Of a stretch of 8,682 bases of DNA, positions 1-8,682 are shown piece after piece. Position 1 is the stretch's first letter; every line of letters starts with the position of its first letter. Below the pieces are notes generated by a model. The model was given only the letters and a program-made list of their open reading frames with translations. It was not told the DNA's origin and made no database searches. A program made the position numbers and the translations under genes. The DNA comes from Promethearchaeota archaeon (GTDB taxonomy: Archaea > Asgardarchaeota > Lokiarchaeia > Sigynarchaeales > SOKP01). Location: NCBI GenBank assembly GCA_016839655.1, contig JAEOTW010000188.1, positions 1 through 8,682 of the forward strand, written 5' to 3'.

Positions 1-74
1 ATTCTTACACGAAATTTTTTATAAAAAAATACTTTCTACAATTTAAGGTAAGTTAAAATATCGAAGGATATTAT

Positions 75-118
75 TAAACGTTTATATATCTACAAATATT
101 TTACGCTGATGTAAACGT
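75..118 (+). promoter_or_regulatory. Probable promoter of the fwd operon
   Basis: An archaeal TATA-like box, TTTATATAT, lies at 81-89, preceded by an A-rich stretch where a BRE would sit. A start of transcription about 25 bases downstream (near 108-113) would leave a leader of about 40 bases containing a good Shine-Dalgarno site. Two copies of TAAACGT (75-81 and 112-118) flank the box, and an inverted repeat TTTAC-N6-GTAAA (100-115) sits at the expected start site; either could be an operator. The box is seen directly; its function and the operator idea are inference. Confidence 0.5.
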
Positions 119-152
119 CAAAAATCGTTTCATTTAATAATGAGGGAAAAAG

Positions 153-410
153 ATGCAAATATACCGCTTAAAAATAAATAAAAACTCATGTATCGGATGT
201 AATGACTGCGTTGTCAGTTGCCCTTTAAATTTTCAACAATTGAAAGAGAAAGGCTATTTAACTAAAGAAAATGCTGTTGTATTAGTCAAGAATGGTTGTG
301 CATACGATATATATGTTGAGGGGAGAGATGTAAATTGTGATGGATGCGGTGTTTGCTTAAAATATTGCCCCGTTTCTGCTATTGAATTACATTTAGTTGA
401 AGTTAAATGA
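153..410 (+). CDS. fwdG: FwdG-like 2[4Fe-4S] ferredoxin, formylmethanofuran dehydrogenase subunit G
   Basis: This is an 85-residue soluble ferredoxin with two classical [4Fe-4S] motifs: CIGCNDCVVSCP (Cys13, 16, 19, 23) and CDGCGVCLKYCP (Cys62, 65, 68, 72). The inter-motif segment is longer than in minimal bacterial 2[4Fe-4S] ferredoxins and holds an extra Cys49. A small two-cluster ferredoxin encoded directly before FwdF matches FwdG, which passes electrons between the polyferredoxin and the catalytic FwdB subunit. The start is supported by GAGGG at 142-146, six bases upstream. Its stop codon overlaps the Shine-Dalgarno site of the next gene, so the two are probably translationally coupled. 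The ferredoxin call is certain; the specific FwdG assignment rests mainly on context, and a generic ferredoxin recruited to the operon is the alternative. Confidence 0.75.
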   Translation: MQIYRLKINKNSCIGCNDCVVSCPLNFQQLKEKGYLTKENAVVLVKNGCAYDIYVEGRDVNCDGCGVCLKYCPVSAIELHLVEVK

Positions 411-420
411 GGTAAAAAAT

Positions 421-1143
421 ATGTCATTTCCAAAAATATCAAGATCAATTAGTAAAGAAATCGAACATGTAAAAGTTCAATTCCTTACAGAAAGTTTAGA
501 ACTTATTTTAGATAGAACTAAGTGTGTTGGATGCGGAACTTGCGCACGTGTCTGTCCAAAAGAAGCTATTTCGCGAGGTCCAGTTGCAGCTGCCAGACGT
601 TTTCCCAATATGGAGGATATTATTCCAGAAGTATATGATCCAAAGAAATGTGTATTTTGCGGAACTTGTGTGGTAATGTGCCCTTTTAGTGCGCTTACAC
701 TGAAGAAAGATGGAGAATTAATTGAATTAGCTAATATTCAGATTGTTAAAGAAAATGTGGTTCCTAAGATTGAATTTGAGACCAAAAAGATATCTGATAA
801 TACAGGAATTGAAAGAATCGCTAAATTATATGTAGATGGTGAAATTAGTATTGTTGATGAAGAATGCGCTGGAGGTTGTGAAGCATGTGCGGATGTATGC
901 CCCAGTGGTGCAATAACTGTTCCAGAAAAATCAGATAAAGGATGGGAAACTGTACCTAATGTTGTTGTTGATCCTGAAAAATGTATTTATTGTGGATCAT
1001 GCGATAATGCGTGCCCAACAGGTGCAGTAAAATTGAAAATTATGGATATTAAATCATCTGGAGAATTCAGCAAACTGTTTTGGGAACCCCTTTTAGAGAG
1101 AATAAAAACGCTAAGGTGGAGTGAAAAAAAGGAGGAAAAATGA
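421..1143 (+). CDS. fwdF: FwdF-like polyferredoxin, formylmethanofuran dehydrogenase subunit F
   Basis: This 240-residue polyferredoxin probably wires electrons to the Fwd catalytic core in the cytoplasm. Four cluster motifs are visible: CVGCGTCARVCP (Cys35-45), CVFCGTCVVMCP (Cys77-87), CAGGCEACADVCP (Cys149-160) and CIYCGSCDNACP (Cys188-198). They form two pairs separated by a roughly 60-residue spacer, which suggests duplication of a two-cluster unit. The third motif has CX3C rather than CX2C spacing at its start. Methanogen FwdF is longer, with eight clusters, so this is a half-size version. The ATG at 421 is preferred over an in-frame TTG at 397 because GAGGT at 409-413 is correctly placed for it and the TTG lies inside the preceding gene. 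The stop codon at 1141-1143 lies just upstream of the TTG start proposed for fwdD. Confidence 0.85.
   Translation: MSFPKISRSISKEIEHVKVQFLTESLELILDRTKCVGCGTCARVCPKEAISRGPVAAARRFPNMEDIIPEVYDPKKCVFCGTCVVMCPFSALTLKKDGELIELANIQIVKENVVPKIEFETKKISDNTGIERIAKLYVDGEISIVDEECAGGCEACADVCPSGAITVPEKSDKGWETVPNVVVDPEKCIYCGSCDNACPTGAVKLKIMDIKSSGEFSKLFWEPLLERIKTLRWSEKKEEK
1130..1135 (+). promoter_or_regulatory. Shine-Dalgarno AGGAGG deciding the TTG start of fwdD
   Basis: AGGAGG lies nine bases before TTG at 1145. The only nearby ATG (1140) runs into TGA after two codons, and the upstream in-frame GTG (1121) would place this site inside its own coding sequence, so TTG 1145 is the best start. Confidence 0.7.
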
Positions 1144-1144
1144 A

Positions 1145-1540
1145 TTGAGTATTAATAATTTAATTTTAATAACGTGCCGAACAATTAATCAAGGAGTTGC
1201 ACTTGAGGGTGGCAAAAATACAAAAGAAAATGTCAGAGCGGCAGGAATCTGTGCTTTTGATAAAGAAGATTTTAAAAAATTAGATTGTTTGGTTGGGACT
1301 CCAGTTAAAGTAATTACTGATCATGGAGAAGTTGTTGTTTATTCAACAATTTCCGAAGAAGGACCCCATCCTGGAATTATTTTCATACCAATGGGTCCTT
1401 GGGCAAATCAAGTTGTAAATCCCGATTCCCAAGCATGCGGCACACCTACCTATAAAGGCATGAAAACAAGAGTAGAAGTTGTACAAAGTGGAAAAGTATT
1501 AGATGCAGTAAATTTAATTAAATTATTAAGGGAGGCATAA
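1145..1540 (+). CDS. fwdD: Formylmethanofuran dehydrogenase subunit D (molybdopterin-binding)
   Basis: This 131-residue protein matches FwdD/FmdD, the small molybdopterin-dinucleotide-binding subunit that corresponds to the C-terminal domain of formate-dehydrogenase-type enzymes. With FwdB it encloses the bis-MGD tungsten or molybdenum centre that reduces CO2 to formate. Recognisable features are the N-terminal NLILITCRTINQG strand-turn, the central VGTPVKV and GEVVV double-psi-barrel strands, and the motif FIPMGPWANQVV followed by GTPTYKG, which are hallmarks of the family. Length is normal for FwdD. The start is a TTG behind AGGAGG (1130-1135), two bases after the fwdF stop codon. Its last codons contain the Shine-Dalgarno site for fwdB. 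There are no lesions. Confidence in the family is high because the WAN motif and the adjacent FwdB agree. Confidence 0.9.
   Translation: MSINNLILITCRTINQGVALEGGKNTKENVRAAGICAFDKEDFKKLDCLVGTPVKVITDHGEVVVYSTISEEGPHPGIIFIPMGPWANQVVNPDSQACGTPTYKGMKTRVEVVQSGKVLDAVNLIKLLREA
1531..1535 (+). promoter_or_regulatory. Shine-Dalgarno GGAGG for the fwdB N-terminus
   Basis: GGAGG sits seven bases before ATG 1543 and inside the end of fwdD. It shows that translation is set to begin at 1543, which encodes the expected FwdB N-terminus, and not at a TTG (1590) that opens the downstream frame. Confidence 0.75.
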
Positions 1541-1542
1541 GA

Positions 1543-2900
1543 ATGGTTGATAAAAATATAAGAACCGTCAATGACGTGATCTGTCCATTTTGCGGAAATT
1601 AAATGGCGATTCGCTCTTTACCGAAACTTTATGTGACGATCTCGAAATTGACGTGGATTTAAAAGAACAAAAAGTTATAGAAGTAAGAAATGGCTGTCAA
1701 ATAGGTACAAAGAAATTTTTTGCTTCAAATCCCAGTGAACATAGGTATGATAAACCTCTCATTAAGGATAATGGTTCATATAAGGAAGTATCTTGGGATG
1801 AGGCAATCGATAAGTCTGCTGACATTTTAGTGAAGGCTAAAAGACCTTTACTTTACGGATTTTCAAGTACTGAGTGTGAAGCTCAAGGCCAGGGTGTAGA
1901 ATTAGCAGAATTGTTAGGAGGAGTTTTAGATAATACTGCATCAGTATGTCATGGACCTTCATTACTTGCAATTCAAGATGTTGGTGCCCCTACTTCAACC
2001 TTAGGTGAATATAAAAATAGGGCAGATCTTGTTGTATTTTGGGGTAGTAATCCTGTTCAAGCACATCCCCGACACTTGGGAAGATATAGTGACTTCATTC
2101 GTGGTTATTTTAGAAAAGATGGTACAAATGACAGATTTATAGTAGTTGTTGATCCCCGTAATACTCTTACTGCTCAATTAGCCGATATGTATATTCAAAT
2201 AAATCCTAACGAGGATTATGAACTATTAAATGCTATTAGAGCACTATTAAGAGGCGTTGAATTAGATAGTAATGAGATTTCAGGAGTGCCAAAAAAGAAA
2301 ATTATAGAATTAGTCAATGCATTAAAATCATGTACTTTTGGAGTCATCTTTTTCGGAATGGGACTAACCCACACTTTATCACATCATAGGAACATTGATG
2401 CTGCAATTTGTCTTACGCGAGAATTAAATGATCATACTAAATTTTTGTTAACTCCCATGCGTGGACATTATAATGTCGCTGGAGCAAATCAAGTTTTTAC
2501 GTGGCAAACGGGATATTCTTATTCTATAGATTTTTCTAAAGGATATCCTCGCTATAATCCAGGAGAGTTTTCCTCAGTAGATCTTCTAATGAGGGATGAA
2601 ATGGATGCCTCTCTAATTGTTGCATCTGATCCCGCAAGTAATTTTCCCGCAGCAGCAGTGAAAAATATGTTTAAACATCCTCTAATTACTATTGAACCTC
2701 ACCATACTCCAACATCAGTGAATTCAGATATTATTTTACCTCCTGCCATTGCTGGAATAGAATGTGAAGGAACAGCATATCGAATGGATAGCGTACCATT
2801 AAGATTAAGAAAGGTCAAAGAAGCGCCCGGAAAATGTTTAACAGATAAGGAGATATTAGAAAGATTAGTAGAAGCCGTAAGAAACAAAAAGGGGGAATAA
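1543..2900 (+). CDS. fwdB: Formylmethanofuran dehydrogenase catalytic subunit B, frame interrupted by a 29-base insert
   Basis: FwdB binds a [4Fe-4S] cluster and the W/Mo bis-MGD cofactor and reduces CO2 to formate. The first 18 codons (MVDKNIRTVNDVICPFCG) read from ATG 1543. One more Asn codon is then followed by TAA at 1600. The family resumes at 1626 in another frame with TLCDDLEIDV and continues without a stop for 424 residues. Removing 1597-1625 gives a 442-residue protein, the usual FwdB size. In that joined protein the cluster cysteines are C14, C17, C21 and C42, and the metal-ligand Cys is C126 in NTASVCHGPS, encoded by TGT and therefore not selenocysteine. Other family signatures are TECEAQ, NPVQAHPRH, FGMGLTHTLSHHRN, MRGHYNVAGANQV and ECEGTAYRMDSVP. 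The identity is certain; whether an intact product is made is not. Taken literally, the gene gives a 19-residue peptide plus a C-terminal part without its first two cluster cysteines. Confidence 0.9.
1597..1625 (+). other. 29-base insert splitting the fwdB iron-sulfur motif
   Basis: These bases lie exactly between the codons for CPFCG and TLCDD, which are contiguous in the FwdB family. The boundaries can slide by one base either way without changing the joined product. The insert carries an in-frame TAA and, not being a multiple of three, shifts the frame. With its flanks it can fold into an imperfect hairpin: CGG/CCG (1593-1595 with 1621-1623), TAAA/TTTA (1600-1603 with 1617-1620) and GCG/CGC (1606-1608 with 1612-1614) around an ATT loop. 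Its origin is unknown: intron, bypass element, insertion mutation or assembly artefact. Confidence 0.75.
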
Positions 2901-2904
2901 ATTT

Positions 2905-3756
2905 ATGGCGGAAGTTAAATTAAAACTGAAAAAAAAACCGGATTTTCCATTAGAAGCTGAAACTATAACACCAGATAAATTTGCTGGAAAATCAGCAGCA
3001 GAAATTAAGAAATTAGTTTTGTATCATGGAAATGAAGAAAAGACAATTGGAGATTTTTTTAACGTCACTGGAACTGGAGGAGAAGTGAGTGATACTAAGA
3101 TTATACTAGATGGAGATCTCTCCAATGTCAAAAGAATTGGAGAAAAAATGACTGGGGGAGAAATTGTAATAAACAGTAATGTTGGAATGCATGTAGGCAA
3201 TAATATGTCAGGAGGAAAGATATTAGTAAATGGTAATGCAGATGATTGGGCAGGAGCTATGTTAAAGGGTGGTGAATTAGAGATTACAGGTGACGCGGGA
3301 CATTACGTTGGTGCTGCATATAGAGGATTTTGGAAAGGAATGGAAAATGGATTGATTAAGGTTCATGGAAAGATTGGTAATGAAGCATTGACATGGGTAA
3401 GGGGGTCAAAACCAGCCAAACGATTTCCAACATTAATCTGTGACAGTGCGGGTTCATTTTTAGGGATTCATAGCCATGGAGGTACTATTATTGTGGAGGG
3501 TGATTGTGATAGATGTATTGGAGCAGATCAAATACGTGGAACAATTGTAGTGAAAGGAAAAATATCGAGAATCCTTCCCTCTTTTAAAAAAATAGGGGAA
3601 GTTAAAGAGATTGAATTAATGAGTGGTGAAAAAATTCAAGGAAAGTTTATAGAATATTCTGGCGATCATTCTGTAGAAAAAAATCATTCTAAAATTGATA
3701 AAAAAACAGGAGAAATTTCAAACAGCTCTAATGGGAGATTGTATGTAGCTGCTTAA
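2905..3756 (+). CDS. fwdC: Formylmethanofuran dehydrogenase subunit C
   Basis: This 283-residue protein matches FwdC/FmdC, the right-handed beta-helix subunit related to the C-terminal domain of glutamate synthase; in Fwd structures it is a scaffold at the core of the complex. The visible signature is a ladder of glycine-rich turns roughly every 19-20 residues: GEKMTGGEIVINSNVG, GNNMSGGKILVNGNA, GAMLKGGELEITGDAG, then GLIKVHGKIG, GGTIIVEGDC and RGTIVVKGKI. The length is close to the family norm, and the last 30 or so residues (Lys/Asp/Ser-rich) look like a poorly conserved tail. The gene starts four bases after the fwdB stop, with GGGGGA at 2891-2896 as its Shine-Dalgarno site, so it is the last gene of the same operon. 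No lesions are seen. Confidence 0.92.
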   Translation: MAEVKLKLKKKPDFPLEAETITPDKFAGKSAAEIKKLVLYHGNEEKTIGDFFNVTGTGGEVSDTKIILDGDLSNVKRIGEKMTGGEIVINSNVGMHVGNNMSGGKILVNGNADDWAGAMLKGGELEITGDAGHYVGAAYRGFWKGMENGLIKVHGKIGNEALTWVRGSKPAKRFPTLICDSAGSFLGIHSHGGTIIVEGDCDRCIGADQIRGTIVVKGKISRILPSFKKIGEVKEIELMSGEKIQGKFIEYSGDHSVEKNHSKIDKKTGEISNSSNGRLYVAA

Positions 3757-4574: not shown

Positions 4575-5509
4575 ATGCAGACGAATTTCCTTAAGATTAA
4601 ACCATATGATGAATCCCTTGGATTTTCTATATTGGTAGATTTATTCAATCAAATGAGGAAATATTTAAATCCTGAAACAACATTTCAAATAACTGAAGAG
4701 TTAGCTCATGCAATTTTGGGTAAAGAGTCGGTCATATCACGAGATTTTTTAATGTTTGAAAATAAGAAAAGTGAAATTATTGGTTTTGCAGGTGTAGCCA
4801 AAACTCCACTCTTTAATGCTTGGCTTACTATATATGGTGTATTACCGAAATATATTGATTCTGAGGTCCCTGGAGCTTTAATTGACGCTATATTGAATCT
4901 TGGAAGAAAATTAAATGTCCCAGAGCTATTATTTCAAACAATTGGAGAATTATCAGCACCTTTCGATGAGAAATTAGAGAATATTGGATTCAGCCCAGTT
5001 AACTATAGCTGGGCTATGCGCTTAAATGATTTTGATTTTTTTTCATACCCTAGTATTCCACACGGTATTACAATTCAGAATTTAAAAGATATAGATGATT
5101 ACGCTAGTGTTGTTACTGTTATAAATGAAGCTTTTGCAGACTCATTTCAGTATAAATCTATCACAAAGATGAAATGGAAAAAGATGATAGAAATGGTCAA
5201 GAAAAATCATATTGTTGAACATTGTGTCGCGTATGAAAAAAATAAAATTGTTGGGGTATGTGATACTTATCTCAATCTTGAAGAAGATCAAACAGGCTAA
5301 TTGCAAATTTCGGTGTTCTTCCAAGCTTCCAATATCGCAAAATTGGGAGTGTACTACTTGCATCTGGAATTGAAACACTTCGGAAGAAAGGGTGTAAAAA
5401 GATTAAATTGAGTGTTGATACTAAAAATGAAAAAGCCTTGGGAATCTATAAAAAGTTTGGATTTTATGTAAAAGATAATTTGACTGAGAAAACATATCAA
5501 ATTATATGA
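4575..5509 (+). CDS. Tandem-GNAT acetyltransferase, broken by a one-base frameshift
   Basis: This is a GNAT-family N-acetyltransferase of about 311 residues when the frame is repaired. Residues 1 to about 155 look like a divergent first GNAT domain, and the second begins near IPHGITIQNLKDIDDYASV. The ORF stops at TAA 5298 after NLEEDQTG, just where the acetyl-CoA-binding core should follow. That core appears at once in another frame from 5300 to TGA 5507-5509: IANFGVLPSFQYRKIGSVLL, then KLSVDTKNEKALGIYKKFGF, the typical end of a GNAT fold. One extra base near 5298 (GGC TTA ATT in place of GGCTAATT) would restore TGLIANFGVLP. As written, the protein lacks its acetyl-CoA-binding half and should be inactive. 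The substrate is unknown. Either a sequencing deletion or a real recent mutation fits. Confidence 0.8.
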
Positions 5510-8316: not shown

Positions 8317-8682
8317 ATGTCTAAAGCAGAAGAATATAAAATGTTTCAAGGATGTCTTATAGGCAACAGAATTCCTTTTATTGAAGCATCTGCACGAAAA
8401 GTGTTTGATAAACTCGGAATAAAAACTTCAGATGCTCCATTTGCATGTTGTCCGGATCCAGTGGGATTTAACAGTACTGATCATTTAAGTTGGATGGCAA
8501 TGGGTGCAAGAAATCTTACTATTGCTGAAGCTGAAGGAAAAAACAAGCATCGTACTATAATTAATTTTGTCATAATTCATCATAAAAGCTAGTTAAAAAG
8601 TGTTTGACTTCAGGGATAAAGTACATTACTTAAATGGAATTAACAGCGCCTGAATTACAGGGGAAGGATGCGACAGAATCAA
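8317..8682 (+). pseudogene. HdrB-like (heterodisulfide reductase subunit B) fragment, frame-disrupted and cut by the window edge
   Basis: The first 75 or so residues match HdrB/CCG-domain proteins: MFQGCLIGNRIP (Cys13), DKLGIKTSDAPFACCPDPVGF (Cys44, Cys45) and AMGARNLTIAEAEGKN. These are the start of the cysteine-rich domain that holds a noncubane [4Fe-4S] cluster in HdrB. The next expected element, a CNGC-type motif, is absent: the frame reads NKHRTIINFVIIHHKS and stops at TAG 8590. Family-like sequence seems to go on in other frames, with KVFDFRDKVHYLNGINSA at 8597-8650 and ELQGKDATES from 8652 to the edge, implying several indels in about 100 bases. The start is sound (GAGG at 8305-8308). 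It could be a decaying gene or poor sequence near a contig end. HdrB normally has about 290-300 residues. Confidence in the family is fair; the repaired reading is inference. Confidence 0.6.

Follow-up and report, generated by a model that had tools for sequence, protein, structure and literature searches.

A 29-nucleotide insert in the iron-sulfur motif of Lokiarchaeal fwdB genes is probably a short BHB pre-mRNA intron

Among archaeal protein-coding genes, crenarchaeal cbf5 is documented, as far as the literature searched goes, to contain spliced BHB introns; Watanabe 2002 and Yoshinari 2006 are said to be further references for it. In the BHB geometry, a 4-bp helix forms between the tail of exon 1 and the intron's 3′ end. 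In the published cases cleavage occurs between the second and third residue of the bulge, and the crenarchaeal cbf5 pre-mRNA introns are 16–44 bp long, have been confirmed to be spliced by cDNA, and interrupt the codon of a catalytic residue (Yokobori 2009, PMC2738675). The fwdB insert described here resembles the cbf5 introns in being short (29 nt) and situated in a protein-coding gene, in having a predicted BHB or relaxed BHB at its borders, in interrupting codons for functionally essential residues, and in its lineage-specific presence; in addition, Lokiarchaea would share with the cbf5 hosts an (alpha-beta)2-type EndA whose loop carries Lys-Pro-Arg. It differs in its host gene, which encodes a subunit of a metabolic Fe-S enzyme, in its phylum (Asgard/Promethearchaeota), and in occupying two neighbouring sites at constant length, scattered between close relatives; moreover, splicing was shown by cDNA for cbf5, whereas we infer it for fwdB. 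The BHB introns of archaeal tRNA genes, including those at non-canonical positions (Thermoproteales; Atabeyarchaeia and Freyarchaeia, PMC11291895), have the same motif and size class and presumably use the same enzymes, the fwdB insert being unlike them in lying in an mRNA. For an archaeal virus, putative introns of 12 bp have been described in protein-coding genes (Peng et al., as summarized in PMC2738675); they are in frame, with splicing not demonstrated. These and the fwdB insert alike are small and lie in archaeal protein-coding genes, whereas the fwdB insert is 29 nt long, breaks the frame and has BHB pairing. The literature searched, which lacks most subscription journals and preprints, yielded nothing on introns in fwdB or in protein-coding genes of Asgard archaea, and within that literature the fwdB insert is most likely the first BHB pre-mRNA intron found for an Asgard archaeon or for a metabolic enzyme.

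The window, i.e. the whole stretch of 8,682 nt that was analysed (contig JAEOTW010000188.1), contains a Lokiarchaeal (Promethearchaeota) fwd cluster, in which FwdC is followed by other genes including fdhD. The features around fwdB are as follows.

153..410, + strand: 4Fe-4S ferredoxin-like protein, first in the fwd cluster
421..1143, + strand: polyferredoxin, FwdF-like (NF042909, 118.1 bits, below the cut-off of 375)
1121..1540, + strand: FwdD, start codon uncertain (NF042908, 110.3 bits, below the cut-off of 175)
1531..1535, + strand: GGAGG, Shine-Dalgarno-like, ahead of fwdB (from the sequence)
1543..1597, + strand: candidate fwdB exon 1, MVDKNIRTVNDVICPFCG and, in the BHB register, 1 base of the codon that follows (from the sequence and the register test)
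1592..1595, + strand: putative BHB central helix, 5′ arm GCGG, in exon 1
1598..1626, + strand: candidate 29-nt intron in the BHB register (absent from relatives, present in L001; register test)
1599..1620, + strand: predicted intron hairpin UUAAAUGGC-GAUUC-GCUCUUUA, 5-nt loop at 1608–1612
1600..1602, + strand: in-frame TAA, reached by unspliced mRNA (from the sequence)
1621..1624, + strand: putative BHB central helix, 3′ arm CCGA, in the intron (3 of 4 pairs, the outermost being G.A)
1627..2900, + strand: candidate fwdB exon 2, TLCDDLEIDV frame, 424 codons (TIGR03129, 581.6 bits)
2905..3756, + strand: FwdC (TIGR03122, 253.6 bits, above the cut-off of 130.65)

Read from the ATG at 1543, fwdB gives MVDKNIRTVNDVICPFCG up to CPFCG and then AAT TAA (stop at 1600–1602), and the TLCDDLEIDV frame opens 29 nt past the motif and runs to a stop at 2898–2900. 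The earlier note had claimed that a 29-base insert splits CPFCGTLCDD of FwdB and that its exact removal yields a 442-residue protein; the former was confirmed by the sequence, the open reading frames and the TIGR03129 match, and the latter by the codon count (18 + 424 = 442). The insert can be placed at 1597–1625, while placements at 1596–1624 and 1598–1626 yield an identical joined product. The ORF at 1590–2900 by itself exceeded the curated cut-off of the FwdB family TIGR03129 (581.6 against 327.8 bits), aligned from profile position 9 on, and solved structures related to the window's FwdB include 5t5i, subunit B of tungsten formylmethanofuran dehydrogenase. In this family CPFCG...C is the ligand set of a [4Fe-4S] cluster, and the stretch of the joined product across the motif junction, for a tryptic peptide, is CPFCGTLCDDLE.

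A further claim, that no other lesions are present, holds for fwdB, in which none were seen, but not for two other genes of the window. What we read as a GNAT-like acetyltransferase (4575–5509; no match to Pfam or NCBIfam) stays in one frame to 5300 and continues in another to 5509, and near 5296 it has one T fewer than L005, L006 and L008, so the break would be either a single-base deletion or a sequencing error. The hdrB gene (8317–8682) agrees with its relatives up to about 8542–8545 and then diverges; the last 140 bases of the window contain a stop and have no match in G001–G004, and this end may be either a contig-end chimera or an insertion.

Relatives were collected by a scan of 84,980 species genomes that gave 199, of which the best 80 were kept, and the best of these was JAHQWL010000058.1 (L001), from a Lokiarchaeal MAG, isolate ABR06 (G001). 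Over window positions 1–3428 (3,428 bp) it differs by two mismatches (715 and 759) without a gap and carries the identical 29 bases, and a search of G001–G004 for the 29-mer with up to 3 mismatches found it only at fwdB of G001. The insert has no counterpart in L002, L003, L004 and other relatives. Comparison of fwdB among related genomes, which the earlier note had named as a way to see whether the insert recurs, showed that it does: inspection of 29 relatives gave three further fwdB inserts, each exactly 29 nt long and in the same codons, and a search of 83 genomes of the class added G045 as a carrier. Altogether, 5 of the 53 class genomes whose fwdB covers the motif have a 29-nt insert (G001 = ABR06, G045, G047, G061 and G072), and the remaining 48 have, among the matches listed, one to fwdB at 65% identity or more that is unbroken across the motif; G042, G031 and G051, in which the contig end cuts fwdB ahead of the motif, are left out of this count. 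The insertion points fall into two sites within these codons of fwdB, separated by 7 nt.

Site B, between CGGA and AC: window/G001, G045 (L124) and G072 (L027)
Site A, between CCGTTT and TGCGG: G047 (L009) and G061 (L017)

Removal of the 29 nt gives CPFCGT(L/F)CDD in 5 of 5 genes, and the exon-2 frame is complete in the window, L009 and L017 (423–424 codons), whereas in L027 and L124 it stays open until the contig ends. Across the phylum, in which 138 of 227 genomes gave a match at 1e-90, no further split at the motif was seen among the matches listed, the matches outside the class being too diverged for a firm statement and G187, whose match begins at residue 84, being set aside. Traces of such inserts were also seen in protein databases: among the best 120 of 4,107 homologues, 17 FwdB proteins are without CPxC, and 12 of these have an N terminus in which other residues, in place of CPF(CG), run directly into CGTLCDD or TLCDD (P0011, P0015, P0023, P0024, P0027, P0046, P0050, P0059, P0065, P0070, P0074 and P0086). 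Examples of these N termini are MGSYRFIAVCG (compare, by hand, ESYRFIAVCG of L009) and MIINHLIVTLCDD. These 12 proteins, known from the protein alone and in the case of P0065, P0074 and P0086 displaying MCG and nothing more, appear to be mis-called, with a start within or just past the presumed intron and without the CPFC half; P0043, P0047, P0048, P0053 and P0106 were left unclassified.

When the five inserts were examined for pairing, the central helix lying 2 nt from each cut had 19 of 20 possible pairs, the best of 49 registers; three other registers reached 17 of 20, such that the register scan alone is not decisive, and the geometry had been noticed on L009 and L017 ahead of the formal register test. 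Among 20,000 shuffles of the introns, scored with the same choice among equivalent placements, none reached 19 pairs (null mean 9.6). The central helices are CCGU/GCGG in L009 and L017, GCGG/UCGU in L027 and GCGG/CCGU in L124, each with 4 of 4 pairs, versus 3 of 4 in the window (GCGG/CCGA), which is the weakest copy. In the unconstrained MFE fold of L009 the 4-bp helix is flanked by two 3-nt bulges, with one bulged base in the outer helix, and in that of L017 the 3′ bulge alone is as expected, the 5′ loop being larger. At site B (window, G045 and G072) the outer helix is not contiguous and is broken by pyrimidine mismatches, in the window by U.U mismatches at its start, and therefore the motif at this site is relaxed. 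Pairing of the 5′ end of the intron with exon 2, tried by hand, gave no helix and was rejected; the published geometry gave one. In the MAFFT alignment, sites A and B were out of structural register with each other.

Inside the intron, the arms of the site-B hairpin co-vary by hand comparison (UUGC/GCAA in L027, UAGC/GCUG in L124 and UGGC/GCUC, with one mismatch, in the window). The window's loop at 1608–1612 was hand-drawn after the relatives, and the MFE fold has one extra closing pair. The hairpin energy is clearly beyond shuffles only in L124 and L027; shuffles were as stable in 17% (window), 43% (L009) and 35% (L017) of cases. The site-B introns are alike in sequence, with none of 2,000 shuffles as good for each of the three pairs (L124 and L027 agree at 23 of 29 positions), and across the sites L124 and L017 share 19 of 29 (0 of 2,000 shuffles as good); the remaining between-site comparisons are weaker, with 1% to 43% of shuffles equally good. 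The codon for the second Cys, the C of which is among the bases of a helix, is TGC in 5 of 5 intron-bearing genes versus 7 of 33 intronless ones (Fisher p = 0.0016, kinship ignored), and the Pro codon is CCG in both site-A genes versus 1 of 33 intronless ones; L031, outside the group, is not in this codon count.

The insert, its recurrence, the exact restoration of the frame, the helix in BHB register and the genes for EndA and RtcB are direct observations, and we give a probability of about 85% to the reading of the 29 bases as a short BHB pre-mRNA intron that is spliced out. Introns of the BHB type would be present in a scattered minority of the fwdB genes of Lokiarchaea, each at one or the other of the two sites. 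In the folded fwdB transcript, the GCGG that closes exon 1 would pair with the intron's 3′ end and enclose the hairpin; EndA, the tRNA-splicing endonuclease, would cut each bulge between its second and third base, RtcB would ligate the exons, and the outcome would be the canonical 442-residue FwdB with the cluster motif CPFCGTLCDD intact. Cleavage, ligation and the production of active enzyme are steps that we infer.

Of the enzymes required by this scheme, EndA (PF01974) and RtcB were each found in 7 of 7 genomes tested, including ABR06 as the window's relative. All 12 EndA loci were sorted into alpha and beta by sequence: alpha with the catalytic His and the KPR loop is present in 6 of 7 genomes, beta in 6 of 7 and both in 5 of 7, alpha not being found in G047 and beta not in G045. 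The KPR loop and the His of GPGLEH occur in 6 of 6 alpha sequences, the six beta sequences are without both, and at the catalytic place beta has no His (Ser or Lys aligned). The alpha loci L136–L141 (G001, G002, G045, G072, G061 and G027) thus have a KPR loop resembling the Crenarchaea-specific loop. For the G001 alpha subunit the nearest PDB entries are 3p1z (best) and 3ajv, annotated as tRNA-splicing endonuclease and, we presume, both EndA of Aeropyrum pernix; the alignment of the subunit with 3p1z is ungapped over the loop (NKPRLEYFSKP against EKPRGADFEGP), and the catalytic His is kept, Ala standing at that place in 3ajv. From the presence of two subunits, the Lokiarchaeal EndA would assemble as (alpha-beta)2. 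According to two papers (PMC12397907, PMC6379350), the Crenarchaea-specific loop, which carries K-(P/V)-(R/K), includes Lys44, Pro45 and Arg46; the Lys is linked with broad specificity, and cleavage is weaker in the P45A and R46A variants. The word Asgard is absent from the main texts of the 2019 and 2025 EndA papers searched.

The tRNA genes of G001, G047 and G061 contain short introns, some of them outside position 37/38, in the D or variable loop.

L205, L206, L198, L186 and L207: tRNA genes with introns of about 28–37 nt in the D loop or variable region

This agrees with the report, in PMC11291895, that 92–95% of tRNA genes are intron-bearing in three genomes of other Asgard lineages. As a source of the fwdB introns, tRNA introns were rejected: against 40 tRNA stretches no similarity above shuffles was found, the best local scores of all five introns lying within the shuffle range.

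The downstream fwdB frame is under purifying selection: dN/dS of exon 2 between intron-bearing genes and their relatives was 0.03–0.16, against 0.06–0.07 for three intronless pairs, a measure that gives no date for the insertion. In a phylogeny of 38 FwdB, intron presence or absence requires 5 changes, at least 4 of them forced by supported branches; the carriers cluster no more than shuffled labels do, and each has intronless close kin, L002, the gene nearest to the window's, being intronless. On a quicker tree of 152 FwdB, P0023, P0027 and P0050, all with site-A N termini, group together (SH-aLRT 84), and P0065, P0074 and P0086 form another group (SH-aLRT 100). L009 is 92.5–94.3% identical to P0023/P0027/P0050 and shares their weakly supported fork (80), in which P0029, with its motif intact, also sits. 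Since diverged groups share inserts and carriers have intronless kin, the inserts seem persistent in places and transient elsewhere, and gain, loss and transfer are indistinguishable from the present data. That Lokiarchaeal fwdB is a hotspot at which short pre-mRNA introns were repeatedly gained, lost or moved between lineages is a tentative reading, to which we give slightly less than an even chance.

The rivals, bypassing, frameshift and recurrent inactivation, come under the label ALTERNATIVES. Recurrent inactivation, in which a small insertion element or a hotspot mutation breaks fwdB and the cell relies on other enzymes or on a distant paralogue, is unlikely, and among these rivals it accounts for the most: it would fit the scatter of carriers among intronless kin, the lesions in the GNAT-like gene and hdrB of the window, and the distant FwdB paralogue (about 32% identity) in G001, where a search for a second intact fwdB, as the earlier note had considered, found no close copy. 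This paralogue, however, is present equally in the intronless G002, G003 and G004 and is therefore no special replacement. Against inactivation stand also the length, which is always 29 nt and always in these codons, the insert-exon pairing in the EndA register, the exon-2 frames that are complete or open to the contig end, an exon-2 dN/dS as low as that of intronless pairs, and the site-A N terminus shared by diverged genes in groups.

Recoding, whereby the ribosome bypasses the 29 nt or frameshifts and adds about 10 residues to the cluster motif, is more improbable still. Bypassing in T4 gene 60 uses matching take-off and landing codons, a stop right after the break and a structured insert. 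The fwdB insert is like it in the window's stop directly after the break and in being able to form a hairpin, and a −1 shift in the window would, by hand, give CPFCG-KLNGDSLFTE-TLCDD. Unlike in T4 gene 60, none of the 5 genes has matching take-off and landing triplets (GGA/GAA, GGA/GTA, GGA/GTA, TTT/GTT and TTT/GTA), and the insert pairs with the exon in the BHB register that EndA would require; a frameshift product would, in turn, gain extra residues inside the cluster motif. An assembly or sequencing error, for which the 1-nt GNAT deletion and the odd last 140 bases of the window might speak, has next to no probability, given the identical insert of L001 with its 2 SNPs elsewhere, the 29-nt inserts of four further MAGs and the 12 database proteins (best 120 of 4,107) that start as if read from such an insert. 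A 10-codon in-frame insertion combined with a 1-nt sequencing error was rejected, the length being 29 in all five genomes with no 30-nt form. Group I and group II introns have a large catalytic core; the insert, at 29 nt, was rejected as either, and no Rfam family was found in window 1400–1800 at E ≤ 1. Of the four candidates in the earlier note, a very small intron is thus strongly supported, in the form of an archaeal BHB intron. Translational bypassing is disfavoured by the triplets, for which that note had itself seen no matching landing codon; a fresh loss-of-function insertion is disfavoured by the recurrence at the same length and codons, the retention in diverged groups and the purifying selection; and the separate records, which have this insert or one like it, contradict assembly error.

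Apart from fwdB, no insert of 9–150 nt was found in other genes in 0.70 Mb of Lokiarchaeal loci when at least 2 supporting queries were required; the same scan of 0.50 Mb of other loci gave three rows with two matches, two of them with disagreeing lengths. In G002, G040, G044 and G061, of which 1.6 Mb was scanned, no insert of 9–150 nt turned up among the 542 ORFs that matched across genomes. The 0.70 and 0.50 Mb of loci were picked around fwdB, endA, rtcB and tRNA genes, so that sample is uneven, and since the automatic split-match scans missed L027/G072, which was found by eye, others may be missed. In L125 (497–527; G027:C35) a 31-nt insert with a strong hairpin breaks fwdB between SLLA and IQDV; worked out by hand, a central helix there would comprise 3 pairs, and splicing would alter a residue, and it may be a second kind of insert, without a full BHB fit. 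L126 (G028:C45:56500-58100) has a deletion and frameshift in fwdB near codon 260 and no insert. Among distant FwdB relatives, there is one in-frame TGA (G005:C156:9902-11173, L132) and a TAG (G026:C164:2653-3942, L131); tRNA-Sec genes occur in G001 and G047 (L192, L204), so the TGA of G005 may be selenocysteine.

Gene callers appear to record intron-bearing fwdB without the start that holds the Fe-S motif, and therefore pathway reconstructions may deem a working enzyme broken. Since the intron lies in the Fe-S codons of an enzyme that feeds the archaeal Wood-Ljungdahl pathway, splicing could switch CO2 fixation on or off. If the intron reading is true, fwdB would be a second host gene, tRNA-type splicing would extend to mRNA in the archaea closest to eukaryotes, and the relatives would form a natural intron-plus/intron-minus series for studying gain and loss; and if the hotspot reading is true as well, fwdB would offer, in the archaea closest to eukaryotes, a live system in which protein-coding genes gain introns.
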